Shown one piece after another: positions 6,335 through 24,251 of a stretch of DNA of 37,872 nt. This stretch comes from Nitrosopumilaceae archaeon (GTDB lineage Archaea > Thermoproteota > Nitrososphaeria > Nitrososphaerales > Nitrosopumilaceae): the NCBI GenBank assembly GCA_021296175.1, contig JAGWAX010000003.1, forward strand, positions 1 through 37,872, written 5' to 3'. The notes under the pieces are model-generated. The model saw nothing but the letters and a program-made list of their open reading frames with translations, made no database searches and was not told the DNA's origin. The first letter of the stretch is position 1. Each line of letters opens with the position of its first letter. Position numbers and translations under genes: made by a program.

Positions 6335-8176
6335 CTAATAGTAGTGATGCATCTGGCGCTGCTCCAGGCCCTCCTGCTCCCAGTGGTTGTGGTTCCTGCC
6401 GGGGTCCTTGTGGGCGTGCACGGTGCCGTCTATATGGCAGTGCGTGTTGTCGATCAGGTCCTTGACAAAGACATCATCCACGTTCAGGACGGCGCATGCG
6501 GCCTCGACGGAGCTCTTGAGAACCTGGGCCTTTACAGCGTACGGTTCTATGACACTGTAGGGTAGGCAGGAAACGTCGCATATGCTCCGGGAAGCATGGT
6601 CGACGCCGTACCAGCCCGAGGGGAGGCCGGTGGCGGCGCCGTTGTTGTTCCCACCACCAGCCCCTCCGGCATTATCACAGATGCGGGTCGTCGCAGCACG
6701 CGACCCACGGTGATCATCGTACACCTTTGAGCGCAGGAGCGGCAGTGCGTCCAGCGGCTCAATTCCGACGTTCTCGGCAAGGGTCATCGTAACCGACTCG
6801 AGCGCGTCTGCAAACCTTGCGGCTGCGACCTGCACTTTTCCGGTCATCGCGTCCGACTCGTCCCTGACCCGCCGTGCAAGAATGGCCTCGCACGAGCCCG
6901 CCCCGTACACCAGATATGGGCATTCGATAAAATCCCTCAACACATGCAGCACGTTGAGCGCGGTGCGGTGAAACTCGTCCAAGTACCTCTTTGAGTTGGC
7001 CCGCAAGAGAAGCGTCACGGACTTCACGTTGTCACGCCCGGACTCGACGAAGAGCATCCTGTCCCCGCCCACGTTCCTCTCACATACTAGGCTTGCATGC
7101 CCCATCTTCGCACTTGACATGTCGCGTATGTCCGTGCACGTGACGGCGCCCGTCGCCTTTTCAAGCCACCATATGTCGTTGTGTTTGACCCGCCTCACCG
7201 AGATTATGCCGCTCCTTGCAAGCAGCTCCTGGGCCTCGTCGTCAATCCCCTTGCGGGATATGACCACGTTGGCACCGCTGCCGATCACCCCGCTCACCAC
7301 GCCGCACACGTCGTCGGACTCCTGCCGCAGAAACTCCCCCATTTGTCCGGGAGAGTCCACCGCAATCTCCGACTCCGTCTTGGTGCGGCTGCGCTCAAGC
7401 GGCTCGCTCACAAGCAGTATCCGGGCATCACGCACGGCGCGGGGCATGGCGGCGCTGTCCACGGGCTTGTCGATTACGGTCCCCATTACCAGTTCGGTCT
7501 GCGCCGTGTTGCCGGGCTTTTCCTCTATCTTGACATCATCAGTAAGGGCGCGTCTGGAGGACACGTCCGATGTGCAGTATGCGGCTCGTACCAGCATGTC
7601 GACGATACCGCCGTTGTCGATGTCGCTGCCGCCGCCGTTGCCGCCATCCCCCCGGCCATCCCGGACGCGGCTCCCCTCGCAGAGATCCCCGAGCGCCTTG
7701 CCTCTGATGCAGCAGCGCGCCAAGTCATGCACGGTGCGGCGATCCGAGGCCCTGCCCTCAAACTTTATGCGCTCCAGTTCCGCCAGCGCTGCCACCAGTC
7801 CCGCCTCGTATCCTGCAATTATGCTGGCAGTCGGGATGCGCAGGGCGCGCATCTCTCTGGCATTCTTGAGCAGCGCCCCGATCAGCACCGCCGCGGTCGT
7901 AGTACCGTCACCCACGTGGTTGTCCACCGTGTTTACCGCGTCGACGACGGCCTTGGCAGCAGGATGATCCACGTCAATCTTGCGCAGAAACGCACCCCCG
8001 TGCACGGTCACGGTATCCTCGCCGAGGATGTCGACATACACCTTTGTCATGCCGCGCGGCCCGAGCGCCGTTTTTACCGTCCGGGTTACGAGCTCGCCGG
8101 CAACCATGTTGTACATCTGCGACTCCTGCACTCCGATGCGCGACAGGTCGGGATTGAATATGTCTGGGTACTTCAT
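6335..8176 (-). CDS. Divergent group II chaperonin (thermosome/TCP-1 family) paralog
   Basis: TALGPRGMTKVYVD, IDVDHPAAK, VGDGTTTAAVLIGALL and RFADALESVTMTLAENVGIEPLDAL are thermosome-like; several canonical motifs are altered and the C-terminus is His-rich. Confidence 0.88.
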   Translation of the reverse strand: MKYPDIFNPDLSRIGVQESQMYNMVAGELVTRTVKTALGPRGMTKVYVDILGEDTVTVHGGAFLRKIDVDHPAAKAVVDAVNTVDNHVGDGTTTAAVLIGALLKNAREMRALRIPTASIIAGYEAGLVAALAELERIKFEGRASDRRTVHDLARCCIRGKALGDLCEGSRVRDGRGDGGNGGGSDIDNGGIVDMLVRAAYCTSDVSSRRALTDDVKIEEKPGNTAQTELVMGTVIDKPVDSAAMPRAVRDARILLVSEPLERSRTKTESEIAVDSPGQMGEFLRQESDDVCGVVSGVIGSGANVVISRKGIDDEAQELLARSGIISVRRVKHNDIWWLEKATGAVTCTDIRDMSSAKMGHASLVCERNVGGDRMLFVESGRDNVKSVTLLLRANSKRYLDEFHRTALNVLHVLRDFIECPYLVYGAGSCEAILARRVRDESDAMTGKVQVAAARFADALESVTMTLAENVGIEPLDALPLLRSKVYDDHRGSRAATTRICDNAGGAGGGNNNGAATGLPSGWYGVDHASRSICDVSCLPYSVIEPYAVKAQVLKSSVEAACAVLNVDDVFVKDLIDNTHCHIDGTVHAHKDPGRNHNHWEQEGLEQRQMHHYY

Positions 8177-8215: not shown

Positions 8216-9856
8216 TCAGGCTCCCTTACTCGGTACGCCGCCCGGCACGTTGCCGACCCCTTTTGCGCCGCCGTCCTTGCCACCGGCGCCCTCCTCGCCG
8301 TCGCCGCCCGAGTCCTGCGAGATTCCCTCGAGTCCCGAACTCATGAAGTCTTCCCTAAAGTGCTTTAGGTCCTCGCCTGCAATCACGTCCTCCTCGGGCG
8401 GCACATAGTCGCGCACGTCGTGCCTGGCCTTTCCCGGATACCGGTTCTGGGTCGCAAGGGCCACGGTGATGAACACCACGAACGAGACGACCGGCGGGAT
8501 CATGGTGTCCAGCCCCGCCCATTCCTCGGGCATGGTAAAGAAGAACGACAGCCGCAGGAACGACGCTATCAGGAGGGATGCGACGGCGGCAGGCATGTTT
8601 GCCTTCTTCCAGAACAGCCCCAAGGTGAGCGGGGCAAAGGCCCCCGCAAACATAATGTCAAAGGCCAGCACCAGGTAGACGCCGGGGTTGGGTACCAGGT
8701 ATCCCAGCGTGGTCCCCGCCACAATCATGGGAAATAGCGTGACCCGCGTCATCCACAACAGGCTCTGGTCGCTTGTGCCGGGCTTTCCAAGCCACCTCCT
8801 GCGTATTATCCTGTTTACGAGGTTGCGCGACACGACGCTTGATATGGCCAGCAGGCCCCCACTGGCAGTGGACATGGATGCGCCGATCACCCCCATGAGG
8901 ATGGCTGCGCCCACTGCAAAGGGCATGTGCAAGGTGCTGAGCAGCGGGAGCGCGAACCCGGGATCCGTGTCACCCGGCAGGTAGTAGAGCGCCACGATCC
9001 CAAGCATGCTGGTGGGCACGACGGTAAACAGTGTGAGGGCCCCGCCCATGTACGCGCCCCGCCTCGCCGTCCTCGGATCCTTTGAGGCAAACACGCGCTC
9101 CATAAAGTCCAATGCAATGATGTCGCCCAGCCCCAGCGCCAGTATGGCGCCCCAGTTTATCAGGGCCCCGTTCCCGATGTCAAACAGCCCCGACAGGTCC
9201 AGGAACTCGGGCGGCGCACTCGCGTATATGACAGCCCACGGGGCGTCTGCAAACCCCCCCGCAAAATACAGGAACCCGACCCAGAACGCGGCGATTGCAA
9301 GATACACCTGGAACAGGTTGGTGTACGCGGACGCAAACAGGCCGCCTGCGCAGGTATACGCAACCACCACCAAGGCCGAGAATAATATGCCCCAGAAAAA
9401 GTCAATCCCAAACACGATCTCCAGTATGAACCCGCTTGCGGCCAGGTTCCCCGCGACCAAGACGGTAAAGCTGATTATCATAAGTACGCTGGATATGCCC
9501 TCTGCCCCGTTGCCGTACCTCCTGTAGTAAAAGTCAGGCAGGGTTATCATCGACATCTTGTTGAGGGGTTTTGCGTAAAACGTGGCCGTGACCAGCAGGC
9601 ACACGCCCAGCCCTATGGGCACGACGGCCCCGGCCCAGAACCCAAACTCAAAGACCAGCGCCACGTTGCCAAGCGACGAGTTGCCGTCCACGGCCTGCGC
9701 GGCAAGCATCGTCCCGACCATGGCAAGCGGCAGGCTCTTGCCTGCAACAATCAGCCGCTTGCCGCTCTGCTTTATGAGCCGGCCTGACAGGACTCCCACT
9801 ACCAGTGTAAGCAGAATGAACAGTATGATCGCGGCCCCAAAGCCGTCTATCTCCAC
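8216..9856 (-). CDS. Solute:sodium symporter (SSS) family transporter
   Basis: Many hydrophobic helices; SSS-like core (QAVDGNSSLGNVALVFEFGFWAGAVVP, VLAGNLAASGFILE). Start moved to the GTG at 9856, with a TTTAATA box about 30 bp upstream. Confidence 0.82.
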   Translation of the reverse strand: MEIDGFGAAIILFILLTLVVGVLSGRLIKQSGKRLIVAGKSLPLAMVGTMLAAQAVDGNSSLGNVALVFEFGFWAGAVVPIGLGVCLLVTATFYAKPLNKMSMITLPDFYYRRYGNGAEGISSVLMIISFTVLVAGNLAASGFILEIVFGIDFFWGILFSALVVVAYTCAGGLFASAYTNLFQVYLAIAAFWVGFLYFAGGFADAPWAVIYASAPPEFLDLSGLFDIGNGALINWGAILALGLGDIIALDFMERVFASKDPRTARRGAYMGGALTLFTVVPTSMLGIVALYYLPGDTDPGFALPLLSTLHMPFAVGAAILMGVIGASMSTASGGLLAISSVVSRNLVNRIIRRRWLGKPGTSDQSLLWMTRVTLFPMIVAGTTLGYLVPNPGVYLVLAFDIMFAGAFAPLTLGLFWKKANMPAAVASLLIASFLRLSFFFTMPEEWAGLDTMIPPVVSFVVFITVALATQNRYPGKARHDVRDYVPPEEDVIAGEDLKHFREDFMSSGLEGISQDSGGDGEEGAGGKDGGAKGVGNVPGGVPSKGA

Positions 9857-10090
9857 CAACGCATCTGTTACGGACGCAGACCTATTAAATATTGAAAATT
9901 GAATGTAAAGTACGTATTACGCATAAAATATGATGTGTATACTACAAATTTATGTATAAAACGTAGTAAAAACAAAAAAAGATGCATTATGTAAAGATGC
10001 AACAAGCGGTGGGGCGCCCCTGCAGAAAGGAATGCTGCAAAGGCGGCCCGTATAGAGGCAACGGCGGTGGGGCTGCGGCTCATGGCGTGC

Positions 10091-10161
10091 TCTCTCTTCC
10101 CCCTCCTCCGCCTACTCTCCTCTTCCTACTCTTCTCCTCCCCCTCTCCTTCCTACTCTCCT
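10091..10161. repeat. Polypyrimidine (C/T) tract with recurring CCTACTCT units
   Basis: ctctcttccccctcctccgcctactctcctcttcctactcttctcctccccctctccttcctactctcctg. Confidence 0.85.
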
Positions 10162-10297
10162 GCCGGTACATGCACGGCGCGCCATCGGGATCCCGCACCA
10201 GACTTAATACAATAAAATGTCCAAGTGCTGTTTCGAACCGGCCAGACATACGGCATCGCCACGAACTGCTTTTAATCTACTAGTGCACATCTCGTCT

Positions 10298-10504
10298 GTG
10301 GACAAGCAGTTTGCGGCGGCAGTCATACTGATAATATTCGGTTTTGCCCTGACCCAGATGGGTGGTGGGGAGCAGGCGCAGGGCGGCGCAGACCAGAGCA
10401 TGCCGTTTCTGGCGGGACTTGGAGTCGGGACCGTCGCTATTGCATCGTTCTGGATAGTGATGCGGATCATATCAGACATCAAGAAGAACCGCGCGGGGCG
10501 GTGA
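10298..10504 (+). CDS. Small membrane protein, two predicted TM helices, unknown function
   Basis: Frame of ORF 10217..10504; TTTTAA box about 25 bp before an in-frame GTG favours the shorter start (VDKQFAAAVILIIFGFALTQMGG...). Confidence 0.55.
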   Translation: MDKQFAAAVILIIFGFALTQMGGGEQAQGGADQSMPFLAGLGVGTVAIASFWIVMRIISDIKKNRAGR

Positions 10505-10709
10505 CGGCAGGCGCGCCGACTGCAGGTGTTTACCGCGCTTGGCCGCACGCGTGCGCGGTGGAGGCGCAAGGTTTTGACGGCATGCACTAGAGTCGATTGA
10601 AGCTTTATACCCACAATTGCCAGGTGCAGGACGCGTCCAAGCATGAATTAAGCCGGCCGGAATGTACACTTTTGATGTATTCATAAAATAATATAAGCGC
10701 CAGCACGGT

Positions 10710-11243
10710 ATGCACTGCATGCCCGGCAGCGGATATTCTACAATCGGCCTCAAGCCGAGCATACTGGCGCTCCTCACAAGCGTCACGGACACGTTTTATC
10801 CGGGAATGTTTTTGCCAAGCACCCTGATAATTCTGATGAACGAGGTGAGGCAGGGACGGTATACGGTAAAGATGCACGGCCACAGGCTCGACCTCTCAGG
10901 CAAGTACAACACGCTGACCATACGCAACGACATAAAGGAGTGGATTGACGGCCACCACGAGGAATCCATGGGGGAGTACGCGTCAAAATACCGCATAAAG
11001 TGCTACTCGCACTTTGTCAGCTACTTTCTTGCAAACCTGTTCGAGTCAAAGTTCGAGTCGCAGAACGGGGTCATACGGCTGCAGGAGTCGGACTTTGAGT
11101 GGCTTCACTCCGAGTACGAGTCGCACCGTGGCGCGGCCGCAGGGTCCGGGAACGGCCAGATGACCTTTGACAGGTTTGCCGATGTGTACGTAAACAACAT
11201 CCTGCAAAAGATGAGGACCGCAAAGGAGATCCTCTCTGCCTGA
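10710..11243 (+). CDS. Conserved hypothetical protein, 177 aa
   Basis: Good coding character, AT-rich promoter ATAAAATAATATAA at 10683-10697; the second Met at 10719 is an alternative leaderless start. Confidence 0.7.
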   Translation: MHCMPGSGYSTIGLKPSILALLTSVTDTFYPGMFLPSTLIILMNEVRQGRYTVKMHGHRLDLSGKYNTLTIRNDIKEWIDGHHEESMGEYASKYRIKCYSHFVSYFLANLFESKFESQNGVIRLQESDFEWLHSEYESHRGAAAGSGNGQMTFDRFADVYVNNILQKMRTAKEILSA

Positions 11244-11247
11244 GCCG

Positions 11248-11502
11248 TCACAGCGGCGTCATGGTGTCGATCAGCCTGGCGTTTGTAACCTGGCAGTCCT
11301 TCTCCTGTATCTCGAGGTCCACGGTATACTTTAGCCCGTCACGCATAAAGTTCACCTGCACGTCCCACGCCACGCGCGGCCCCTTTTCAGGTATCTGAAA
11401 CGTCTCGTTGACCCTAAAGTCGGATATCGCGTCGCCGTACAGAGACGCGATGACGCGCCTGGACTCGCGCTCTATGTCCGCCGGCGTGCTTACCGCAACC
11501 AT
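11248..11502 (-). CDS. Small conserved hypothetical protein, 84 aa
   Basis: Compact ORF with mixed alpha/beta character; TTATAA box about 25 bp upstream on the minus strand. Confidence 0.65.
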   Translation of the reverse strand: MVAVSTPADIERESRRVIASLYGDAISDFRVNETFQIPEKGPRVAWDVQVNFMRDGLKYTVDLEIQEKDCQVTNARLIDTMTPL

Positions 11503-11649: not shown

Positions 11650-12912
11650 TTATGGCGGCAGCCAGCGGCCGCCCTTTCCTCTTTTGGCGGCTCTTTTTTG
11701 CGCCTTTGTGATTTTTTCCACAACCTTGTCCCGGTAGTGCTCGGCGGTGCGGTTGCCGGGATCAAGGGAGAGCGCCTTTTCGTACGACAGGAGGGCCTCG
11801 TCGTATCGCCCCAGCAGGTATAGCAGCTTTCCGCGATAACTGTGCGCGTACGCGTACTCCGGATCCGCGTCTATGGCCAAGTCGCAGTATTCAAGGGCCT
11901 CGGCGTGTCGCTTGCGGTGCTCCAAGATCCAGACCATGCTGCACAGGGCCTTGGGGTTCGAGGGGTCGGCGCGTATCGCGGCGTCACAAAAGAACACGGC
12001 CGCGGCATGCTGCTTTAGCGAGTGTAGCGCAATCCCCTTGCTGTACAGGGCCCTGACGTTTCTTGGATCATACTCGAGTATCCTGTCAAGGCACGCGACT
12101 GCCTTGCGGTACATGCCGGTCCGGTCATACAGGAAGCTCAGGTTGAGGTGGGCCTCGGTGCAGTGCGGGTCGATCCGTATGGCCTTCTCATAGAGCGGGA
12201 CCACGTCCTTTGAGGGGAGCCCCGCATAGTCTAGCGTCCAGCCCTTTGCCACGAGTGCGTCCGCGTTCTCCGGGTTCAGGCGCAGAGCCCTTGTGTACAT
12301 CTCCACCGCCTTCTCGTGCCTTTTCTGCCGTGACAGCGCCTTGCCCTGCTCGTACAGGGCGACGGACTGCCTGGCCTCGGCCTTCCTTGCGTCATCCAGG
12401 GCCGATATGGACTCGGCGTTCCTGTGCATCCGGCTCAGGACGCGGCTCCTGCAGTGGTGGGCCTGCACGTGGTCACCGCCGCTTCTCGATATTACCCCGT
12501 CAAGCATCGCAACCGCCTCGTCGTGATCCCCGAGTCCGCTCCTGCAGAGGGCCGAGTATGCCACGGCGTCGTCATACGTGGCGTCTATTGCAAGGATCCT
12601 CTCAAAGTTCACGAGGGCCTCCGCGTACCTGTGCTGCTTTTCGAGCGCAAGCCCCAGGCCCTGCAGGGCGTCTATGTTGGAGGGATCGGACTCGACTATC
12701 TCTGCATAGCAGCGTTCGGAGTCGCCGTACCTTCCCGTCTGGTAGTGTATGCCCGCAATGTGCATCAGGGCGGTCCCGTTGTGCGGGTTTATGCTCAAGG
12801 CCTTTGCGAACCTGGAGGTCGCCTTTGAGAGCTGCCCGTACCGCTCGCACCGGAGTCCCTCGTTTATGTGGCGCCACTCGTTTACGCCGCGCCCCTTTCC
12901 TGCAAATATCAC
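11650..12912 (-). CDS. Tetratricopeptide-repeat (TPR) protein
   Basis: Repeated 34-residue units (AEALVNFERILAIDATYDDAVAYSALC, AVEMYTRALRLNPENADALVAKGWTL, ALLSYEKALSLDPGN); TTATAAGC box about 26 bp upstream of ATG. Confidence 0.92.
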   Translation of the reverse strand: MIFAGKGRGVNEWRHINEGLRCERYGQLSKATSRFAKALSINPHNGTALMHIAGIHYQTGRYGDSERCYAEIVESDPSNIDALQGLGLALEKQHRYAEALVNFERILAIDATYDDAVAYSALCRSGLGDHDEAVAMLDGVISRSGGDHVQAHHCRSRVLSRMHRNAESISALDDARKAEARQSVALYEQGKALSRQKRHEKAVEMYTRALRLNPENADALVAKGWTLDYAGLPSKDVVPLYEKAIRIDPHCTEAHLNLSFLYDRTGMYRKAVACLDRILEYDPRNVRALYSKGIALHSLKQHAAAVFFCDAAIRADPSNPKALCSMVWILEHRKRHAEALEYCDLAIDADPEYAYAHSYRGKLLYLLGRYDEALLSYEKALSLDPGNRTAEHYRDKVVEKITKAQKRAAKRGKGGRWLPP

Positions 12913-13088: not shown

Positions 13089-14204
13089 ATGGGGATGGAG
13101 TTTTACGGTGACGATTACCGGGGGGCCGACGTCGCGCCGTTTGTGGGAATAAACACATTTCTGCACCTGCCCTGGATCAGAAGCCATGCCGAGCTGGTAG
13201 AGGCAAACCCCGACGTGGCGATAATAGGCGAGCCGTTTGACTTTGGTACCACGATACGGCCGGGCGCAAGATACGGCCCGCGGGCCCTGCGTGCCGCGTC
13301 CACCATACCGTCCCCGCCGTACGAGCGGTTCAACATAGAGACCGGGGCCGACCCGTTTGGCACGTTCAGAACCGTGGATTATGGCGACGTGCATGTCTCA
13401 CCGGGCGACGTGATAGAGTCACACAAGAGGATGACCGTAAAGGTCAAGGAGGTGCTCGAGCAAGACGGCATCCCGGTCATGCTCGGGGGGGACCACTCCA
13501 TAACGTATGCCAATGTAAGGGCATTTGCAAAAAAGTACAAGCGGATAGGCATGATACACTTTGACACGCACGCAGACTGCGCGCCGCAGGGCCTGACGGG
13601 CTACAAGTACGACCACGGGGCTCACATACGCCGCATAATGGAGATCGGGTGCATGAAGGGGCGCAACTACTCGCTTGTGGGACCGCGCGGATACTGGCCG
13701 GGGCCGGACCTTTACAAGTGGATGTCCGACCAGGACTTTCAATGGTTTACGATGCTCGACGTGGAGGAGATGGGAATAGACTATATCGCAAAGGAGATTG
13801 CGGACCGCGCAAACGACGGGACGGACGCAGTATACCTGAGCTGGGACATAGACTCGTTTGACCCCGCATACGCCCCCGGCACAGGGGAGCCGGAGCCCAA
13901 CGGACTGACATCCAGGGAGGGCATCCGCATGATCAGGCTGCTCTCGAAATCCTTTGACCCGGATCGCTTTGCGATGGATCTGGTGGAGGTCTCGCCGGCG
14001 TATGACGTCAGCGACAACAGCTCGTACAACGGCGGGATTACCTCGGGCCTTGGCCAGCGGCTGATAGTGGAGCTGCTAGCGGGACTCTCGCTTACAAAGA
14101 GGGGGCTTGAGGGCGGCAGCCCCGTCAGGCCGAGGGACTATCGTGGTACGGGCAACACGTACAACTTTGGAAACCCACGGGCGGAGATCCCTGATCGCGG
14201 TTGA
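13089..14204 (+). CDS. Ureohydrolase superfamily enzyme (agmatinase/arginase/guanidinase-like)
   Basis: Metal-binding motifs GGDHSI, FDTHAD (DxHxD) and SWDIDSFDPAYAPGTGEPE; N-terminal EPFDFGTTIRPGARYGPRALR. Start reassigned from 12945 to 13089 because TTTATTTA lies at about 13054-13061. Confidence 0.93.
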   Translation: MGMEFYGDDYRGADVAPFVGINTFLHLPWIRSHAELVEANPDVAIIGEPFDFGTTIRPGARYGPRALRAASTIPSPPYERFNIETGADPFGTFRTVDYGDVHVSPGDVIESHKRMTVKVKEVLEQDGIPVMLGGDHSITYANVRAFAKKYKRIGMIHFDTHADCAPQGLTGYKYDHGAHIRRIMEIGCMKGRNYSLVGPRGYWPGPDLYKWMSDQDFQWFTMLDVEEMGIDYIAKEIADRANDGTDAVYLSWDIDSFDPAYAPGTGEPEPNGLTSREGIRMIRLLSKSFDPDRFAMDLVEVSPAYDVSDNSSYNGGITSGLGQRLIVELLAGLSLTKRGLEGGSPVRPRDYRGTGNTYNFGNPRAEIPDRG

Positions 14205-14272
14205 CGCGTAATACACGCCGCCGCCCCCTGCAGTGCACCATACGGGTAACCGCGCGGGGAGCAGACAGGGAC

Positions 14273-14740
14273 ATGGGCCCGCTGACCAGGCGGTACGACA
14301 TTATGGACAGAAACGACGAGGAGATGCTTGCGGTGGCGGCCGATTCAATCCAGAACATGATCGCCGGCAACCGCAGAATAAACATTAACGACGTCATGCT
14401 GCTGTACGGGGCATGCGCGTACTCGTCTGCGGCGGCAGACCGGCAGGGCTCATGCATGTCTGCAATCGAGGAGTGGTTGCCGGACATGCTGTCTGACCAT
14501 CAGGTGATGATCGGCGTGCCGGACATGATCAAGCGCCTTGAGATCAGCATTACGGACAGGGCAGGAGGCGACGCGGTAAATGTTGTGATGCAGGATCCAA
14601 TCAGGCCCGCATCATATATGAAATGGGGATTGAGTCAGGGGCAATCAGCAGCATCAGCATCAGCATCGTTTAGCAACAGCAATGGCAGCGGCAGCAGTGG
14701 CGACATCAGCGGCAGGATGATCTCGGGAGATGTACCATGA
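14273..14740 (+). CDS. Putative degenerate urease-gamma (UreA)-like protein with Ser/Gly-rich tail
   Basis: By eye it aligns to this window's UreA: RRININDVMLL / [32 protein letters not shown]...VVMQDPI / [19 protein letters not shown]...[11 protein letters not shown] overlap with the downstream nickel transporter. Confidence 0.6.
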   Translation: MGPLTRRYDIMDRNDEEMLAVAADSIQNMIAGNRRININDVMLLYGACAYSSAAADRQGSCMSAIEEWLPDMLSDHQVMIGVPDMIKRLEISITDRAGGDAVNVVMQDPIRPASYMKWGLSQGQSAASASASFSNSNGSGSSGDISGRMISGDVP

Positions 14741-15591
14741 CCGTGCTGGACGGGCTGCTTGCAGGCGCATACCACGTGCCGTACGCAGAGGCTCCCCTGC
14801 TTTTGCTGGGAGCCGGACTGCTGGTAGGACTGTATCATGCATTGGAGCCGGACCACGTAACCGCAATGTTGTCGTCTGTCAGGCGAGGGCAGAGGGGGGA
14901 AGAGAAACAGAGCAGGAGGATGGCAGGCATAACGGGCTCCATATCGGGCCTGCTATGGGGGTTCGGGCACGCGTCTAGCATATTTCTAGTGGCAGTGTTG
15001 GTCATCATACTGTCCGTAAACATCCCACGCGAACTGTTTGATATATTCGAGATGGGGGTGGGGGCGATGCTGATCCTGCTTGGCGTGTCGGCAATATGTG
15101 AGGGGGCCGGCGGCACAAAAAGGTGGATGCTGCCATTCCTGTCACGGCTTTGGGCCCACTCGCACGTCCATACGCACGAGGACGGAACGACGCACTCCCA
15201 TCCGCACAACCACGACGACAAACGCGAGGGGGGTGGCGGCAGTACGGGCCACTCGCACAGCCACGTCCCGTACGTCATAGGATGCGTGCACGGCCTGGCC
15301 GGAAGCGGGGGGCTGGTGATATTGGCCCTGTCGGCCATGCCGGACGCAATAGCGTCGTCCGCGGCCGATGCCGGGGCGCTACTGCCGTTGCCGCTATTAC
15401 TTGCGTCAGTGTTTGGCGCGGGGTCGACGATCGGCATGGTGCTGGTGGCAGGCGCCCTGTCACTGCTGTTTGCGGCATGCGGCAGCACCAACACCGCAAG
15501 GAGGGCAATTCGGTACGCGTCAGGGGGCGCCGCCATACTGTTTGGCGCATATATCATTGCAGGCGGCGCGGCCGCGGCGCTGGGAATATAG
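14737..15591 (+). CDS. NicO/UreH-type nickel(cobalt) transporter with His-rich loop
   Basis: Multi-TM, LYHALEPDHVTAM (HX4DH-type), GLLWGFGHASS, His-rich loop HSHVHTHEDGTTHSHPHNHDD...GHSHSHV, IGCVHGLAGSGGL. Confidence 0.87.
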   Translation: MTVLDGLLAGAYHVPYAEAPLLLLGAGLLVGLYHALEPDHVTAMLSSVRRGQRGEEKQSRRMAGITGSISGLLWGFGHASSIFLVAVLVIILSVNIPRELFDIFEMGVGAMLILLGVSAICEGAGGTKRWMLPFLSRLWAHSHVHTHEDGTTHSHPHNHDDKREGGGGSTGHSHSHVPYVIGCVHGLAGSGGLVILALSAMPDAIASSAADAGALLPLPLLLASVFGAGSTIGMVLVAGALSLLFAACGSTNTARRAIRYASGGAAILFGAYIIAGGAAAALGI

Positions 15592-15747: not shown

Positions 15748-16323
15748 CTAGCGAGTCGCAGTCTCCGGATTGTGCGGCTCGGCCCTGCCGCTGCCGTCTC
15801 CCCAGTTTCCGCGGGCCTGGCCCAGCAGCAGGCTGCGCGACTTTAGCGTCTTTCGAATCAGGACGAACCCGAGCGCGGTCGTAATGGCGCCAAACAGGAT
15901 GTGCGTCACGTTGGCATCCTCCCCAGTGGACATCATGGTAAAGCCCAGTCCCAGCAGCATCATCAGGCCGCCCAGCCCGGCAAAGATTATCATTACAAGG
16001 GGCAGCTTCTGCGGGGGCCTCGGCAGCTCGCCTTTTGACTTTGGCGCCGTGGGGACGGGAACGGCCCCGTTTGATACTGCCTCGTAGCAGACATGGCAGT
16101 AGTTGTGGTGGGTGCCGCCCTTGTTGTACGGCTTCATAAAGTAATAGTCGACACCGCACAGATCGCACTTCCTAGTAGGGCTTACAATCTTGGCGTGCTT
16201 GTCAAACTCCTTGCCGAGCTCCATCATGCAGGGCCTGCAATAGTAGCCCGGTATGCGCCACATGCGCTGGAACTTGTACTTTTTCCATCCAAGGGTGATG
16301 CCGCACCCGCCGCAGTGTGTCAC
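15748..16323 (-). CDS. Zinc-ribbon-containing membrane protein, 191 aa
   Basis: Three CxxC motifs (CGGC, CRPC, CDLC) plus CHVC, and two TM helices; directly downstream of the SSS gene. Confidence 0.75.
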   Translation of the reverse strand: MTHCGGCGITLGWKKYKFQRMWRIPGYYCRPCMMELGKEFDKHAKIVSPTRKCDLCGVDYYFMKPYNKGGTHHNYCHVCYEAVSNGAVPVPTAPKSKGELPRPPQKLPLVMIIFAGLGGLMMLLGLGFTMMSTGEDANVTHILFGAITTALGFVLIRKTLKSRSLLLGQARGNWGDGSGRAEPHNPETATR

Positions 16324-16329
16324 GAGGGA

Positions 16330-18561
16330 TCACGCCCCCGATTTTGCCCCGTCGTCCTTTCCGCGTTTGTCGGCGTCGTCACCACCGCTGTCGTCATCAC
16401 CACTATCGCCGCCGCCATCGCCGGCTCCATCGGCAGGATCATCCTCGACGGCCTCCTGCGCCCCGGATTCCGTGACGACCGTCTTTCTGCCCCTGGCGAC
16501 CTGTGCGATTCCATGCCTCGCTTCTATGATGGGCAGCCCAACTATAAAAAAGGTCGCGGCGCTCACCCATACGACGGCTATGCCGACCCAGAAAGAGTAG
16601 AATCCGATATCAAACACGTACCCGGAGAAGAACAGCGGCATGGGCCACGCTATGATCAGCACCAAGGTCATGATCCCGCCTCCCTTGAGGCTGAACTTGA
16701 ACGCGCGGGCAAGCGTCTTTTCGTCCGCGTCGAGCGCCGCCCTCTCGGCCTGGCTTATGTCCACCAGCTTTATCCTCTCCCTCATTATTGCCCAGTCGAA
16801 CTTGGTCCTGCTTGCCAGGCTTCCCAGTCCCGCAATGGCGCCGCCCGTAAGTATGCCGGCTATGTTACCGAAGAGCATCGAGTAGTTGTGGCCCAGACTG
16901 GCAAGCGACACCTCGCCCCCGAACTCTGGCAGCGACGCGGCCACGCCGACCCACGTGCCCAGCGCCACGAAGAGTCCCGCAACCGCGCCTATCGTGGCGG
17001 CGTACTTGTTTGTGCGCTTCCACGTGATCGTCAGGGCTATCGGTATCACGGCAGAGCCGATCAACACGCCCATCGCCAGGTATACGAATCCCAGTGACAG
17101 TCCCATGCTCAGCAGTATCACCGCCAGGCCCCCCATGCCCAGGCCGAACCCGACTATGGTGGCGCGCGAGACCTTTAGCAGCTGCTTTCCCGACGCCGAC
17201 GGGTTCTTGTACGTCCGGTACACGTCGTATGTGATCAGTGACGAGACGGCGATCAGCTCGGCGGAGCCCGCCGACGTCACGGCCATGAACAGCATGGTCA
17301 GCACCATCACGGCTCCCACCTCGCCCATCAAGACTGATGCGGCGGCGGGTACCGTAAGCCCGAGCTGGACCTGCTCCGGCGTCAGGTCCACGCCAAGCGC
17401 GACGGCCGTGAGGCCCATTGTAGTTGCAAGCGTAAACGGAATGGCAAACCAGCAGGCGCCCCCGAGCAGGAACCCCTTTACCGTGGACTGCGGGCGCGCA
17501 GCAATCGCGCGCTGCCAGTACGCCTGGTCCACAAACACGGTGCCAAAGTTGCCCACGATGTTGATCACGCCGAATATCAGACCCCCGAGGGACGCCATAG
17601 TAAGGTAGGCGCCCGCCGCGTTGCCCTCCACCGGGTTTATGCGCGCGGCCTCGACGAGCTTGTCGTACATCCCCTCGATGCCGCCCGTAACGGGGCTGAT
17701 AAAGTAGACCGTGCTGACGAATATCAGTATCACGATGAATATTATGATCGTATGCATGTAGTCCGCCACGAACGTGGCCTTTAACCCGCCGACCAGCGTG
17801 TATATCATCACGCCTATCGGAATCAGGAACGCGGCAATCGAGATGTCCATGCCGGTCAGCCCGTTGACGACTGCCGCTCCGCCGAGCAGCAGCATGGCGG
17901 TCACTATCATGTTTGTCATCAGTGCGAACACGAGAAAGACCCGATGGGCGCCGCCGCCGTACCTAGCCCTTATGATCTCCAAGAACGTGTGTGCATTGGG
18001 CGCCTTGCGCTTGAGCTCTATTGCCAGTATGCCGAAGAGAAGGACCTGTATGGACGCGCCTGCCGCATACCAGAACGGGCCACTTACCCCGTACTGGTAG
18101 GCAACCGTCGATGACTGCAGCAGCGTGGCGGCCCACGTCCAGGCAGATACAATGGCAGCCGCAGTAAGGCCTGTTTTGATCACCCTGCCCGCCGTGTTGA
18201 ACCACTCGGAGGTCTGGGAGACGCCTAGGTATCGTTCCTCTACCTTTGTCTCGACCGTAATTACGATCGCAAACACGGCGCCGAGGCCCACAACTATGAA
18301 CCAGCCCCAGCTCTCGTCGAGCACGTCACCTATCGTGAATCCTTCCGCGATGACACCGGCACCAAACGCCGGGTTTGGGACGCAGGATATAGCCAGTACG
18401 GCGACCAGCGCCACTGCCGCAGACGGCAAAAGTGCCTGCCGGGACATGATCGCCTTCTTGTTGGCCGCCGCAACAGATGCAATAGATTCAAGCGGCGCCA
18501 CCACTGATGCCGTTATCGTAGAGAGGGTGGTAGTCGCAGGCTGTCCGCGCTCCATGCGCAT
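16330..18561 (-). CDS. SSS-family transporter, DUR3-like (probable urea/Na+ symporter)
   Basis: SSS topology (SAWTWAATLLQSSTVAYQYGVSGPFWYAAGA, GGLKATFVADYMHT); close paralog of the 31240-33615 product; adjacent to ureC. Substrate inferred from context. Confidence 0.85.
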   Translation of the reverse strand: MRMERGQPATTTLSTITASVVAPLESIASVAAANKKAIMSRQALLPSAAVALVAVLAISCVPNPAFGAGVIAEGFTIGDVLDESWGWFIVVGLGAVFAIVITVETKVEERYLGVSQTSEWFNTAGRVIKTGLTAAAIVSAWTWAATLLQSSTVAYQYGVSGPFWYAAGASIQVLLFGILAIELKRKAPNAHTFLEIIRARYGGGAHRVFLVFALMTNMIVTAMLLLGGAAVVNGLTGMDISIAAFLIPIGVMIYTLVGGLKATFVADYMHTIIIFIVILIFVSTVYFISPVTGGIEGMYDKLVEAARINPVEGNAAGAYLTMASLGGLIFGVINIVGNFGTVFVDQAYWQRAIAARPQSTVKGFLLGGACWFAIPFTLATTMGLTAVALGVDLTPEQVQLGLTVPAAASVLMGEVGAVMVLTMLFMAVTSAGSAELIAVSSLITYDVYRTYKNPSASGKQLLKVSRATIVGFGLGMGGLAVILLSMGLSLGFVYLAMGVLIGSAVIPIALTITWKRTNKYAATIGAVAGLFVALGTWVGVAASLPEFGGEVSLASLGHNYSMLFGNIAGILTGGAIAGLGSLASRTKFDWAIMRERIKLVDISQAERAALDADEKTLARAFKFSLKGGGIMTLVLIIAWPMPLFFSGYVFDIGFYSFWVGIAVVWVSAATFFIVGLPIIEARHGIAQVARGRKTVVTESGAQEAVEDDPADGAGDGGGDSGDDDSGGDDADKRGKDDGAKSGA

Positions 18562-18638: not shown

Positions 18639-20351
18639 CTAGTACAGGCTGTACAGCCTTCCAAGAGACAGGCGCGTCGCCGGTTCGGCGGTGGCCGGCC
18701 TGCCGTCCACCACGACCTCGTAGGTCTCCGGATTGATGCGTATCTCAGGCGTCAGGCTGTTGTACAGCATGTCCTTTTTGCCTATGTTTCGGCAGTTCTC
18801 GACTGGCACCAGCCTCTTTGAGGTCCCAAGGCTGTCTGCAAGCCCGCGGGCGATGGCCAGCTTTGACGTGAACGTAACCGACGTCGAGTGCTTGGCCGAG
18901 CCGAGCGCCCCGAACATCGGGCGGTAGTACACCGGCTCGGTCGTGGGTATGCTCGCGTTGGGATCGCCCATCAGCGAGTACGCGACAAACCCTCCCTTTA
19001 TGATCATCTTGGGCTTTATGCCAAAGAACTGCGGCGTCCACACTACGATATCGGCAAGCTTGCCGGGCTCAAGCGAGCCGACGTGGGCCGATATCCCGTG
19101 CGTTATGGCCGGGTTTATGGTAATCTTGGCAAGGTACCTCTTTACGCGCACGTTGTCGTTGTCGCCGCGCTCGCCGGCAAGCCGCCCCGCACTGCGCTTC
19201 ATCTTGTCGGCGGTCTGCCAGTTTCTCGTGGTAACCTCCCCCACCCTCCCCATCGCCTGACTGTCAGAGGACATCATGGATATGGCGCCCATGTCGTGCA
19301 GGACGTCCTCCGCCGCTATGGTCTCGCCGCGTATACGCGACTCGGCAAACGAGAGGTCCTCCGGGACGGAGGGGTTCAGGTGGTGGCAGACCATCATCAT
19401 GTCGAGGTGCTCTGCAAGGGTGTTCACCGTAAACGGGCGCGTCGGGTTGGTGGAGGACGGCAGTATGTTCGGCTCCCCGGCCACCCTCATTATGTCGGGC
19501 GCGTGCCCCCCGCCGGCCCCCTCCGTGTGGTACGTGTGGATGGTCCGGCCCGCTATGGCCTGTATGGTATCGTCCACAAAGCCGCATTCGTTGAGCGTGT
19601 CAGTGTGTATCGCGACCTGCGTGTCCGTCTCGTCTGCCACGCGCAGGGCCGAGTCTATGGTGGCAGGCGTCGTCCCCCAGTCCTCGTGCAGCTTTAGCCC
19701 GCAGGCGCCGGCCCCCACCTGCTCCAAAAGCGACTCGGGCCTGGAGTCGTTGCCCTTGCAGAGAAACCCAAAATTCAGCGGGTACTCCTCGGCGGCCTCT
19801 ATCATGCGGTGTATGTTCCACGAGCCTGGCGTGCAGGTCGTGGCCTTTGTTCCGTCGGCGGGGCCCGTGCCGCCGCCTATCATGGTGGTGGTGCCGTTGC
19901 ATATGGCGTCCACCGCCTGCTGCGGCGAGATGAAGTGGATGTGGGAGTCTATGGTGCCCGGCGTGCATATAGTGTGCTCGCCTGCGATCACCTCCGTGTT
20001 CGAGGACACGGTCATCTCTATGCCGTCCATGATGTGGGGGTTGCCGGCGTTCCCGACGCCCACGATGAGCCCGTCCTTTATCCCGATGTCGGCCTTTACA
20101 ATGCCAAGCACCGGGTCCATGACGATCGCGTTTGTAATCAGCAGGTCAAGCGAGTCCTCCCGCAGGACGCCGCTGGCCTGGCCCATCCCGTCGCGCGCGC
20201 TCTTTCCGCCGCCAAAGACGATCTCGTCGCCGTGCACGAGCAGGTCACGCTCGATCTCTATTATCAGGTCCGTGTCGGCAAGCCGGACCCTGTCGCCGGC
20301 GGTGGGCCCGAACAGCTCGGCATACCGGCGCCGCGGAATCTCAAGCGTCAC
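18639..20351 (-). CDS. ureC: Urease alpha subunit
   Basis: [12 protein letters not shown] (carbamylated Lys motif), [22 protein letters not shown] flap, [11 protein letters not shown]. Confidence 0.98.
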
Positions 20352-20845
20352 TGCGACCTGTACCCCCTCTCCGCAGCAAGGCGCAGGGCCTCGTCCCTCT
20401 TCTGGTCGAGCGGCCCGTTGATCAGCCCGCCAAAGCCGTACACCGTCCTCTCCCCGCCGTACGCGACGAGGCTGACGGTGCGCGAGTCGCCCGGCTCGAA
20501 CCGGACGGACGTCCCGGCGGGAATGTTCAGGTGGAACCCGTACGCCTTTTGCCGGTCAAAGGACAGGGCCCTGTTTACCTCAAAAAAGTGGGCGTGCGAT
20601 CCGACCTGCACGGGGCGGTCCCCCGTGTTCGTGACCTGCACCGACGCGGTGTCCCTGCCACAGTTGAGCTCTATGTCGCCGTCGGCTATGATGTACTCGC
20701 CGGGCCTCTCGCGTGTGGTCATTGCCCGGCCGCCGCCCCCGTGGTTTTCAATGCAATCTTGGTTGTCGTCATCATAATTATCATTATCACCACCACCTGC
20801 CATCACCACAGTCTCCACCACGCAAGCACGACAGCATACCCTCAC
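20348..20845 (-). CDS. ureB: Urease beta subunit with acidic N-terminal extension
   Basis: [43 protein letters not shown] overlap with ureA and overlap with ureC. Confidence 0.96.
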
Positions 20846-21144
20846 TTTGCTATCGGGTCGTGGACGGTCACGAGCTTTGTGCCGTCCTCAAACGTGGCCT
20901 CCACCTGTATCGAGTGTATCAGGTCCGGAACCTGCGGCAGCACGTCGTCCTTGCAGAGCACGCTTCTTCCCGAGCTCATCAGCTCGGGCACGGTCCTGCC
21001 GTCGCGCGCGCCCTCCAGTATGTGATCCGTGATTACGGCGACTGCCTCCGGATGGTTGAGCTTCAGGCCGCGCGCCTTGCGGCGCATCGCAAGCTGGGCC
21101 GCAAGGAACACGTACAGCTTGTCCATCTCCCGCGGCGTGAGCAT
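20842..21144 (-). CDS. ureA: Urease gamma subunit
   Basis: [49 protein letters not shown]. Start moved to Met10 of the ORF because the TATA box lies only a few bases upstream of the ORF-track ATG. Confidence 0.95.
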
Positions 21145-21171
21145 CAATACCTGAACCTGCGTGCATGACAT

Positions 21172-21242: not shown

Positions 21243-21809
21243 ATGCTGGACGTCTACACCAAGATAGCGGGCAACAAATTCAACGACGGTGACAAAAAAC
21301 TCAACGGCGACAAAAAGCGCACAAGGGGCGGCGAGGAATTGTTCGATACGGCCGTGATGCCGAGGGCCGACATGGCAAAGAGCAGGCAGCTTGTAAGGAC
21401 AAAGTCGGGGGCCGAGGTGGGGATAAACCTGAGCCGGGGCAGGACGCTGCGCCACGGGGACATACTGCAAAGTGATAACCCGAAGAGGCCCCCATTAATT
21501 ATCCAGCAGTCCCCCGAAAAGGTCATAGTGGCAAGGTTTCTGGCCTGGGATCCGGAGGACAACTATGACATGCCGCATGCCGACGATTACTTTGAATTAT
21601 GTATGGTCATAGGCCATGTAATAGGAAACAGGCACCGCCCCATCTCGATCAACGGGGAGGAGAAGACCGTGTCGTTCCCCATACAGGACGATTCTGAACT
21701 AGAGACGTTTGAGGGGCTGTTTGGCCAGGCGGGGGACGACGTCGAACTGAGTATTGCAAGGGAGATCTTTGTGCCGCATGCGGGGGCCGACGTGCATGGG
21801 CACCAGTGA
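21243..21809 (+). CDS. ureE: Urease accessory protein UreE
   Basis: LRHGDILQSDNPKRPPLIIQQSPEKVIVA, GHVIGNRHRPI; first in ureEFGD order. Confidence 0.9.
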   Translation: MLDVYTKIAGNKFNDGDKKLNGDKKRTRGGEELFDTAVMPRADMAKSRQLVRTKSGAEVGINLSRGRTLRHGDILQSDNPKRPPLIIQQSPEKVIVARFLAWDPEDNYDMPHADDYFELCMVIGHVIGNRHRPISINGEEKTVSFPIQDDSELETFEGLFGQAGDDVELSIAREIFVPHAGADVHGHQ

Positions 21810-22527
21810 CGCGGGGGCGGCGGGGGACGGCCCCGGCGCCTGCGCGCCGGACGATCTTGACGCCCTGCAGATATCAGACTCGCTGTTTCCCACCGGGATG
21901 TTTGCGTCATCAGGCGGGCTGGAGCTGATGTTTGCCAAAGGGATGGTAACCGGCGCGCGGGAGCTGTCGGCGCTGTGCAGGGATCTGATCACCCACCAAG
22001 TCGGCGTTGCAGACTGCGTGGCCCTTGCAAACGCGTACGACGCAGCGTCCCACGAAGACACGGATGCCATCGAGGAGATAGACGCCGCATGCTGCTCTGC
22101 AAAGACGGTGCGGGAGGCAAGGGACGCGTACGTGCGCTCCGGAGTGCAGCTGTGCAGGTGCGTCGCAGAGTTCTGCGGCGACGAGCGCCTGGCAAGATAC
22201 CGTGGCTGCATAAGGGACAAGAGGGCCAGCGGGGTCTATCCGGTTGCGCTCGGCGTGTGCTGCAGCGCGCTTCGAATCGGAAAGAGGAGGGCGGCGCACA
22301 TACTGCTGTACGGATTTGCCGCAAACATGGCGGGCGCCGCGCTACGGCTTGGGATGATACAACACTTTGAGGCGCAAAAGATGATCCACGAACTAAAGCC
22401 CGCCATGAGGGAGGCCGCAGAGTCATGCATTACAAGGGACGTCTCAGAGATGTGGCAGTTCTGCCCGCACGCCGAGGTGCTGCAGATGGCGCATGCAAGG
22501 GCGGATGAAAACATGTTCATTACATGA
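21796..22527 (+). CDS. ureF: Urease accessory protein UreF
   Basis: LQISDSLFPTGMFASSGGLELMFAKG; start chosen at ATG 21796, overlapping the ureE end. Confidence 0.93.
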   Translation: MGTSDAGAAGDGPGACAPDDLDALQISDSLFPTGMFASSGGLELMFAKGMVTGARELSALCRDLITHQVGVADCVALANAYDAASHEDTDAIEEIDAACCSAKTVREARDAYVRSGVQLCRCVAEFCGDERLARYRGCIRDKRASGVYPVALGVCCSALRIGKRRAAHILLYGFAANMAGAALRLGMIQHFEAQKMIHELKPAMREAAESCITRDVSEMWQFCPHAEVLQMAHARADENMFIT

Positions 22528-22550
22528 CAGACTGACAGACAGACAGACAC
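22526..22550 (+). repeat. GACA-type short tandem repeat between ureF and ureG
   Basis: gacagactgacagacagacagacac. Confidence 0.8.
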
Positions 22551-22560
22551 GGATGATGAT

Positions 22561-23238
22561 ATGGCGATGAATGAGAGAATACCTAGGATCGGAATAGGCG
22601 GGCCCGTGGGCTCCGGAAAGAGCATGCTGATTGAGCGCGTGGTGCCCGTGCTGGCGAGCCGCGGATACAGCGTGAGCATAATATCAAACGACGTCATATC
22701 AAAGGAGGACGCGGACCGCATGAGATCCAACCTGGCCACGGAGCGCGGCCTGCTGCCAGAGAACCTGGTCGTGGGGCTGGCGACCGGCGGGTGCCCGCAT
22801 ACGGCCGTGAGGGAGGATCCGTCAATGAACATATCGGTGATAGAGGACATGGAGGAGGAGCACCCCGAGCTGGACCTCATAATAATAGAGAGCGGCGGCG
22901 ACAACATAACCACCACGTTCAGCCCTCTGCTTGCAGACTATTTCATCTATATCATAGACGTGGCCGGCGGCGACAAGTATCCAAGGAAGGGCGGGCTTGG
23001 AATAACAAGCTGCGACCTGCTAGTGATAAACAAGACGGACCTGGCGCCCATGGTGGGTGCGGACCTGGGGGTGATGAGATCAGACGCCCTGAGGATCAGG
23101 GGCCCCGAAAAGCCGTTTGTCTTTGTGAACTGCATGACGGACAGGGGCATACCGGAGGTGGCCGATTTCATAGTGAGAAACCTGCTGTTCGGGGCCCTGC
23201 CAAAGGCCGGATCCAAAAAGGCAGGCGAGTCACAATGA
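22561..23238 (+). CDS. ureG: Urease accessory GTPase UreG
   Basis: GIGGPVGSGKSMLIERV, IIIESGGDNITTTFSP, VINKTDLAP. Confidence 0.97.
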   Translation: MAMNERIPRIGIGGPVGSGKSMLIERVVPVLASRGYSVSIISNDVISKEDADRMRSNLATERGLLPENLVVGLATGGCPHTAVREDPSMNISVIEDMEEEHPELDLIIIESGGDNITTTFSPLLADYFIYIIDVAGGDKYPRKGGLGITSCDLLVINKTDLAPMVGADLGVMRSDALRIRGPEKPFVFVNCMTDRGIPEVADFIVRNLLFGALPKAGSKKAGESQ

Positions 23239-24251
23239 CGGATGCCGCAGTCGAGGCCGGGGGGGTGGCGGCGACGGCAGCGACAGCGGAAGGAGGGGTC
23301 TTGCCTCGGGATGATACATACGCCATACCGCCCCACAGGACGGGCATGGAGGGGCGCCTGCACCTGTCGCTGCACCGCGATGGTGTCAGGACGGTCCTAG
23401 GATCCCAGCGTGCAGAGCCCCCCCTGTCTGTGCAGAGGGCGCTCTACTGCGAGGAGCTCCTGCCTGACATGGCATACGTATACATCACATCCACGTCAGG
23501 CGGCATGCTCCAAGGCGACAGGCACATCACAAGATTTGACCTAGACGCCGGTGCAAGGGCCCACATTACGACGCAGGGCGCCACTAGGATATACGGGGAT
23601 GACGAGGCGTCGCCGGGCATGGAAAAGCCGGCGGCCAGGTCGTCCCTCCGCATGTCGCTGGGCGAGAACTCGTACCTAGAGTACATGCCCGACCAGATAA
23701 TCCCGTACACAGGCTCTAGGTTTCAGCAGGATGCAGACATATTGGTGCACGAGACTGCGACCCTCGCATATGTAGAGACCGTGACGCCGGGGCGCGTCGG
23801 GATGGGCGAGTCGTTTGCCTACAAGTCGTGCAACCTCAAGATGCGCGTCACGGATCAGGGCGGGAGGTTCAGATTTATCGACGCGGCAAGGATGGAGCCG
23901 CGTGCTGCGCAGCCGTCATTATCGCAGCCATCATTACGGCCACAATCCAAAAACAGGTCAGAACTGGACATTAAATCATTTGGAATAATGGCAGAGTACA
24001 ACGTCGTATCCTCTCTGTATATAATTACGCAAAAAAAGCACGTAGACAAGCTGCAAAAAGACATCGACGGCATCATACTGCAGCATGACAAGATTGCAGG
24101 TGGCGCCACCACAATGCGCGGCAGTACGGGTGTGATGGCAAGGTTGTTGGGTCCCGACACCGAATCTGTAAAATCCGCCATAACGGAGGCCGCCGCTTAC
24201 GCAAGAAAAATTATTCTGGGCGCGCCCTTTACCGACATCAGGAAGAGCTGA
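23235..24251 (+). CDS. ureD: Urease accessory protein UreD (UreH)
   Basis: EYMPDQIIPYTGSRFQQDADILV, TSTSGGMLQGDRH, TTQGATRIY; true start is the ATGA overlapping the ureG stop rather than the 22791 start in the ORF track. Confidence 0.95.
   Translation: MTDAAVEAGGVAATAATAEGGVLPRDDTYAIPPHRTGMEGRLHLSLHRDGVRTVLGSQRAEPPLSVQRALYCEELLPDMAYVYITSTSGGMLQGDRHITRFDLDAGARAHITTQGATRIYGDDEASPGMEKPAARSSLRMSLGENSYLEYMPDQIIPYTGSRFQQDADILVHETATLAYVETVTPGRVGMGESFAYKSCNLKMRVTDQGGRFRFIDAARMEPRAAQPSLSQPSLRPQSKNRSELDIKSFGIMAEYNVVSSLYIITQKKHVDKLQKDIDGIILQHDKIAGGATTMRGSTGVMARLLGPDTESVKSAITEAAAYARKIILGAPFTDIRKS

Follow-up and report, generated by a model that had tools for sequence, protein, structure and literature searches.

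Our analysis of a 37,872-nucleotide stretch of DNA from a Nitrosopumilaceae archaeon (the window) points to a gene cassette through which ammonia-oxidizing archaea (AOA) could draw ammonia from guanidine or from a closely similar small guanidinium ion, an interpretation that we consider moderately probable. In the proposed pathway, the guanidinium ion would enter the cell together with Na+ through the sodium:solute symporter SSS2 (8216–9859, minus strand), the putative guanidine importer, and would be hydrolyzed to urea and ammonia at the binuclear metal site of a 371-residue ureohydrolase of the arginase superfamily, denoted UHY here (13089–14204, plus strand). The fold and catalytic residues of UHY are evident from Pfam, tree and alignment, whereas its substrate is predicted; the metal is probably nickel, and Glu267 takes the place of the substrate-limiting Trp of the bacterial guanidinase. 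The adjacent urease, for which the genes are present, would then turn urea into ammonia for ammonia monooxygenase, the conversion of urea to ammonia being established urease chemistry. A NicO-like Ni/Co transporter with an HX4DH motif and a His-rich loop (14737–15591, plus strand) would handle Ni2+, and a divergent group II chaperonin whose C-terminus forms a conserved His-rich tail (6335–8176, minus strand) may keep nickel in its folding chamber and load or assemble UHY and/or urease. Finally, a stand-alone protein with a predicted urease-gamma fold, referred to as UreA-like (14201–14740, plus strand), could act as a partner subunit of UHY or as an adaptor to the urease assembly machinery.

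A conserved neighborhood and its link to urease

The window belongs to a 1.78-Mb genome (assembly about 91% complete); an identical UHY is encoded in the metagenome-assembled genome (MAG) p16x60bins.31, and proteins with 93–95% identity are found in MAGs named Cenarchaeum. Pfam and profile searches confirmed the claim of the sequence-only reading that the UHY, UreA-like and NicO genes are co-directional and lie beside a DUR3-like transporter and a ureABC-EFGD locus, and the ATGA overlap that it described between the UreA-like and NicO genes is indeed present at 14737–14740. The DUR3-like protein (16330–18561, minus strand) is an SSS transporter from a clade distinct from SSS2 and probably serves in urea uptake. 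The Pfam-assigned urease genes comprise ureC (alpha subunit; 18639–20351), ureB (beta; 20348–20845) and ureA (the true gamma; 20842–21171), all on the minus strand, and the accessory genes ureE, ureF, ureG and ureD (21243–24251, plus strand). A 191-residue protein with Cys pairs and hydrophobic stretches (15748–16323, minus strand) adjoins the DUR3 gene; a 53% identical copy in another locus (L065) likewise has a DUR3 gene beside it.

The cassette had nevertheless been delimited too narrowly: SSS2, the His-tailed chaperonin and two proteins without a Pfam family, one of 177 residues (10710–11243, plus strand) and one of 84 residues (11248–11502, minus strand), had been missed, and all are tightly linked to UHY. 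A survey of gene neighborhoods in relatives, which had been put forward as a check (here, tblastn of the window genes in 112 loci), showed that the UHY locus has been maintained across Nitrosopumilales and Nitrososphaerales and is partly preserved in haloarchaea. In the two AOA orders, UHY is surrounded by SSS2, a TPR-repeat protein (11650–12912, minus strand, in the window; the usual UHY neighbor in Nitrosopumilaceae), the divergent chaperonin and the UreA-like gene, often by NicO, and frequently by urease.

Orthologs of UHY were detected in 56 of 250 Nitrosopumilaceae genomes, with the presence cut-offs for all genes set by eye at clear E-value gaps. Urease, represented by UreC, is encoded in 52 of these 56 genomes and in all 33 with completeness of at least 90% and contamination of at most 5%. 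Conversely, UreC occurs without UHY in 44 genomes, so that the dependence runs from UHY to urease alone, a one-way relationship that is expected if UHY supplies urea. The UreA-like and 84-residue proteins are present in 49 and 48 of the 56 UHY genomes, respectively, and in none without UHY (for the latter, 48/48 carriers have UHY); the 177-residue protein is present in 46 (46/47 carriers, with 1 genome lacking UHY) and SSS2 in 50, with 4 occurrences outside the UHY genomes. The chaperonin is found in 41 UHY genomes, is absent at the cut-off used from 15, and occurs in 6 genomes without UHY. Because the genomes are related, the Fisher values for these associations are descriptive. Among the UreC-positive genomes, SSS2 is present in 49 of the 52 with UHY but in only 3 of the 44 without it; of these three genomes, two have a completeness of 60–69%, and the SSS2 gene of the remaining one is truncated at the end of a contig. 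Thus, SSS2 tracks UHY among urease-bearing genomes and belongs to UHY rather than to urea uptake, and we rejected its assignment as a urea transporter. One genome (G242) carries two copies of the genes for UHY, UreA-like, SSS2 and the 84- and 177-residue proteins, on contigs C1 and C46. One of the two small proteins could be a regulator.

The UHY enzyme and the SSS2 transporter

UHY extends from ATG 13089 to the stop at 14204, with a length and start region common to 72 distinct orthologs, and matches Pfam Arginase with 272.9 bits. It is a member of the ureohydrolase (arginase) superfamily, with the ligands of the GGDH, DxHxD and DxDxxD motifs in place; in the alignment, all six metal ligands (H136, D159, H161, D163, D253 and D255) are kept. 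The key positions of the guanidinase, Thr105, His222, Trp313 and Glu344 (PMC11410670), are occupied in the alignment by Thr55, His176, Glu267 and Glu300. Trp305 together with Thr97 has been reported to set guanidine specificity (PMC11410670); these residues correspond to Thr105 and Trp313 in Nitrospira inopinata, so that UHY retains the Thr (Thr55) and replaces the Trp with Glu267. This Glu is identical in every UHY row compared, from AOA and haloarchaea, whereas all compared enzymes of the SpeB/GbuA/GpuA type have Thr. Thus, UHY resembles GdmH in carrying a bulkier residue than Thr at this position, although in UHY the residue is charged; the placement of Glu267 in the pocket comes from the alignment, the AlphaFold model of UHY being too poor (pLDDT 57) for this purpose.

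In a tree of 47 ureohydrolases, for which most reference sequences were segments returned by the structure search, with arginase, formiminoglutamase and metformin hydrolase left out, the UHY proteins of AOA and their haloarchaeal counterparts (50–52% identity) form a single clade (100/99), apart from GdmH (100/99) and from the group of SpeB, GbuA, GpuA and proclavaminate amidinohydrolase (92/90). GdmH, a Ni2+-dependent enzyme with solved structures from Synechocystis (7ESR, 7OI1) and N. inopinata (9FEK), shares with UHY the superfamily, the metal-ligand set, the Thr, His and Glu residues and the proximity of urease, and in Rubrobacter and Nonomuraea has a partner transporter of the SSS2 clade. 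It differs in falling into a separate clade (the haloarchaeal UHY relatives are about 38% identical to GdmH), in having Trp305/313 at the position of Glu267, and in the motif DRHVD, which reads DTHAD in UHY. We therefore rejected UHY as a member of GdmH, given the separate clades and the replacement of the Trp by an invariant Glu. The sequence-only reading had proposed a route from a guanidino compound through urea to urease; this part is strengthened by the strict co-occurrence with urease in the 33 good genomes and by the conserved neighborhood, whereas the kinship with GdmH that it had raised does not extend to membership. Within the GdmH clade itself, a protein of Embleya (L132, about 10001–10861) carries Thr at the position of the guanidine-specific Trp, and its substrate may be a different one.

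The same tree, which the earlier reading had named as a check against characterized SpeB, guanidinobutyrase and GdmH, places UHY outside the agmatinases. Of the outcomes which that reading had listed as speaking against it, neither placement among the agmatinases nor loss of the neighborhood in relatives was observed. Published annotations would make UHY an extra SpeB agmatinase, acting in polyamine synthesis or urea balance, and SSS2 a low-affinity urea transporter, in line with the 2–3 speB copies counted in AOA (PMC10753782). We consider this improbable. UHY scores 157 bits against the TIGR01230 cut-off of 174.3, and both tree and active site exclude it from the SpeB group, while SSS2 is not a member of the DUR3 clade and is lacking in 41 of the 44 genomes that have urease but no UHY. 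Furthermore, the genome of the window encodes a second, different ureohydrolase (contig C117, locus L002, about 10569–11366), 36% identical to UHY and with Asn at the position of the GdmH Trp; this protein, too, falls outside the UHY clade, and its relatives are found in nearly all Nitrosopumilaceae. It is probably the agmatinase of the polyamine pathway and is a likelier agmatinase than UHY. SpeB (Escherichia coli, 7LOL) and the C117 protein share with UHY the superfamily and the common annotation name but belong to different clades, and unlike them UHY is essentially confined to urease-bearing genomes and paired with SSS2. That UHY might instead split arginine, as an arginase releasing nitrogen internally without any uptake, seems very improbable to us: the superfamily does include arginases, and arginine together with urease would release ammonia, but the transporter pairing is constant, the scores of UHY against arginases are far below those against GbuA and GdmH, and the CAPQGLTG loop that follows its DxHxD motif is unlike the arginase motif.

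The transporter provides the best clue to the substrate. In a plasmid collection, the six best matches to SSS2 (36–38% identity, E 1e-64 to 1e-74) all adjoin a ureohydrolase gene; among the matches listed, the others are below 29% identity, with E no better than 1e-28. The Haloarcula and Halalkalicoccus matches adjoin the haloarchaeal UHY (the H. sinaiiensis pair by coordinates), and those of Rubrobacter indicoceani and Nonomuraea adjoin canonical GdmH, the Nonomuraea neighbors being divergent. The R. indicoceani GdmH is 65% identical to that of Synechocystis, with the Trp and DRHVD present, and is preceded, 80 bases upstream, by a guanidine-I riboswitch (75.7 bits, cut-off 63); the gene order is riboswitch, GdmH, SSS 122 bases later, and then formamidase and urease. 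Antisense to these urease genes is an Rfam 5_ureB_sRNA match (92 bits; L123, 12871–13160, minus strand) that may reflect the coding sequence of the opposite strand. In the SSS tree, AOA SSS2, the haloarchaeal SSS and the GdmH-linked SSS form one clade (100/99), in which the haloarchaeal UHY partners are sister to the GdmH partners (100/99); PutP, DUR3 and the SSS beside other haloarchaeal ureohydrolases lie outside it. One SSS clade thus accompanies GdmH in bacterial hosts and UHY in archaeal ones. By association in a small number of hosts, this is most simply explained if both hydrolases act on imported guanidine; the link covers four independent bacterial or haloarchaeal genera, with the bacterial relatives taken from plasmid records only. 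Counting against guanidine, a search for guanidine riboswitches in the window and four other archaeal loci returned none.

Two other haloarchaeal loci (L137, 2679–5329; L139, 3965–7571) also join a ureohydrolase to an SSS, but each from another clade than UHY and SSS2. Ureohydrolase-symporter pairing has therefore originated more than once, and other guanidino compounds may be the substrates in such cases. In Rubrobacter (L123, 10553–11797) and Haloarcula (L114, 4881–6152), fmdA, which encodes a formamidase, lies with the ureohydrolase-SSS pair; no formamidase was found in the genome of the window and, among 20 relatives, there were only weak matches in three other families.

It is conceivable, and we rate it as unlikely though not negligible, that UHY hydrolyzes another external guanidino compound imported by SSS2, such as methylguanidine, agmatine, guanidinoacetate, taurocyamine or 4-guanidinobutyrate, with the urea still feeding urease. 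Glu267 could be the counterpart of a positive group in a larger substrate, UHY lies outside the GdmH clade, and the best phmmer score for UHY among solved structures is that of the guanidinobutyrase GbuA (3NIO; 1e-51), a member of the same superfamily, as is the guanidinopropionase GpuA (3NIP); moreover, the closest solved relative of SSS2 is a choline transporter, so that other organic cations would fit. On the other hand, UHY is well outside the clade of GbuA, GpuA and SpeB, all of which have Thr at the position of Glu267, and its specificity loop, CAPQGLTG, differs from NDHMFG and NDRYFG of GbuA and GpuA, respectively. It is the SSS2 clade, which includes the partners of GdmH and among them that of the riboswitch-linked GdmH, that leads us to favor guanidine as the substrate.

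The UreA-like protein, NicO and the His-tailed chaperonin

The UreA-like gene adjoins UHY and is not part of the ureABC operon. Its product matches the NCBIfam urease-gamma models weakly (E 2e-4 to 4e-3) and scores 15.2 bits against the Pfam cut-off of 23.9. An AlphaFold model of the ortholog from locus L053, built with 36 relatives, has a pLDDT of 92.6 and matches solved gamma subunits of urease (for 2kau_A, a Foldseek E of 5e-7 at a probability of 1.00, with a TM of 0.80 on the target); the sole significant solved relatives of the model are ureases, at their gamma part. With its relatives taken into account, the predicted UreA fold can be regarded as certain. The start annotated at ATG 14273 should, judging from the sequence, be moved to TTG 14201, which overlaps the UHY stop (TTGA) and adds an N-terminal strand, for a total of 179 residues, because the two genes overlap by 4 bases or 1 base in 49 of 61 loci. 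The arrangement suggests that UreA-like is translationally coupled to UHY.

The nickel side of the cassette is drawn largely from its gene content. NicO scores 27.2 bits, against a Pfam cut-off of 27.7, and carries the HX4DH motif as HALEPDH. Both GdmH and metformin hydrolase require nickel, with chaperones of the HypA/HypB type as their activators, and the operon of the Ni-dependent metformin hydrolase includes a HupE nickel transporter gene (PMC11399263); no HypA was found in the genome of the window, at about 91% completeness. The metformin/dimethylguanidine hydrolase (MefH/DmgH) operons likewise combine a Ni-type ureohydrolase with genes for a nickel transporter and metallochaperones, with urea metabolism genes nearby, but encode two ureohydrolase subunits and HypA/HypB, whereas the AOA cassette has one ureohydrolase, the UreA-like gene and the chaperonin. 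The comparison with the GdmH systems is similar: neither a riboswitch nor HypA was found with the UHY cassette, which has the chaperonin and the UreA-like gene instead.

The cassette chaperonin differs from both of the normal thermosomes of the genome, which end in Gly/Met or Gly/Pro stretches. It matches Pfam Cpn60_TCP1 with 370 bits but scores 405.8 against the thermosome cut-off of 450, and the AOA cassette proteins form a clade of their own (100/100). All 41 AOA chaperonins examined have a conserved His-rich tail, with 8–10 His in the last 45 residues (for example, NTHCHIDGTVHAHHDGGKAHNHFEQEGLEQRQMHHYY), and the tail is kept in both AOA orders. The nucleotide-binding GDGT motif is retained; at the position matched to Mm-cpn D386, the presumed catalytic aspartate, the Nitrosopumilaceae rows have Asn, whereas those of Nitrososphaeraceae mostly have Asp. 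The C-termini of group II chaperonins sit at the base of the folding chamber, so that the His tail would place metal where substrate proteins fold. A comparable case is HspA, the GroES of Helicobacter pylori, which has a His-rich nickel-binding C-terminal tail and is linked to urease nickel supply; however, HspA is a bacterial co-chaperonin and the AOA protein a group II chaperonin subunit, so that the likeness would be functional rather than homologous. We infer that UHY uses nickel and that NicO and the chaperonin deliver it. The fuller proposal, that AOA possess a guanidinase of their own, from a new clade, with its nickel site filled inside a dedicated His-tailed group II chaperonin, is put forward tentatively; to our knowledge, metallocentre assembly by metal loading is known for no other group II chaperonin.

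Alternatively, the chaperonin, the two small proteins and the TPR gene might be mere syntenic neighbors of UHY, which would be compatible with guanidine import by SSS2 and its hydrolysis by UHY; we regard this as a serious but somewhat doubtful explanation. The genes occupy one locus in related genomes, so that the co-occurrence counts are not independent, and the chaperonin near UHY in Haloarcula, considered as a possible ortholog of the AOA protein, belongs to a different, unrelated lineage. Against this, the co-occurrence spans more than 10 genera and holds where gene order differs, and both AOA orders have retained the His tail. Divergent TCP-1/cpn60 genes also occur within catabolic gene groups of haloarchaea (L143, 4953–6722; L144, 4347–6101), with a spermidine/putrescine-type ABC transporter and a hydantoinase as neighbors. 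It may be more usual than supposed for a chaperonin to serve one particular pathway.

Earlier accounts and implications

Extra ureohydrolase genes of AOA have been counted as copies of speB (PMC10753782), the clustering of an SSS gene with SpeB, noted in a single soil clade, has been interpreted as urea transport and agmatine cleavage (PMC11131427), and a general agmatine route has been given (PMC6790972). A screen for guanidine-use genes published in Nature found none in any AOA (PMC11410670), and none were reported in AOA or floodplain nitrifiers (PMC12625717). We found no further account of guanidine use by AOA or haloarchaea in the open literature, and a description elsewhere may exist. 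In the literature searched, some of these genes have thus been noticed, though neither recognized as a guanidine system nor connected with the UreA-like and chaperonin partners. Although UHY is not GdmH by membership, its cassette probably functions as the GdmH pathway does.

Few nitrifiers on Earth are as abundant as AOA, and ammonia oxidizers have been shown to draw energy from ammonia, urea and cyanate and, in the case of comammox, from guanidine. Should UHY prove to be a guanidinase, guanidine use could extend to about half of the Nitrosopumilaceae genomes in our set that encode urease (52/96), as well as to many Nitrososphaerales and some haloarchaea. Archaea would then need a place in ideas on guanidine turnover in soil, sea and sponges, and the current annotations as SpeB and urea transporter would have to be replaced by new names. 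The chaperonin would be a further unexpected element, making the loading of nickel in AOA without HypA directly testable.
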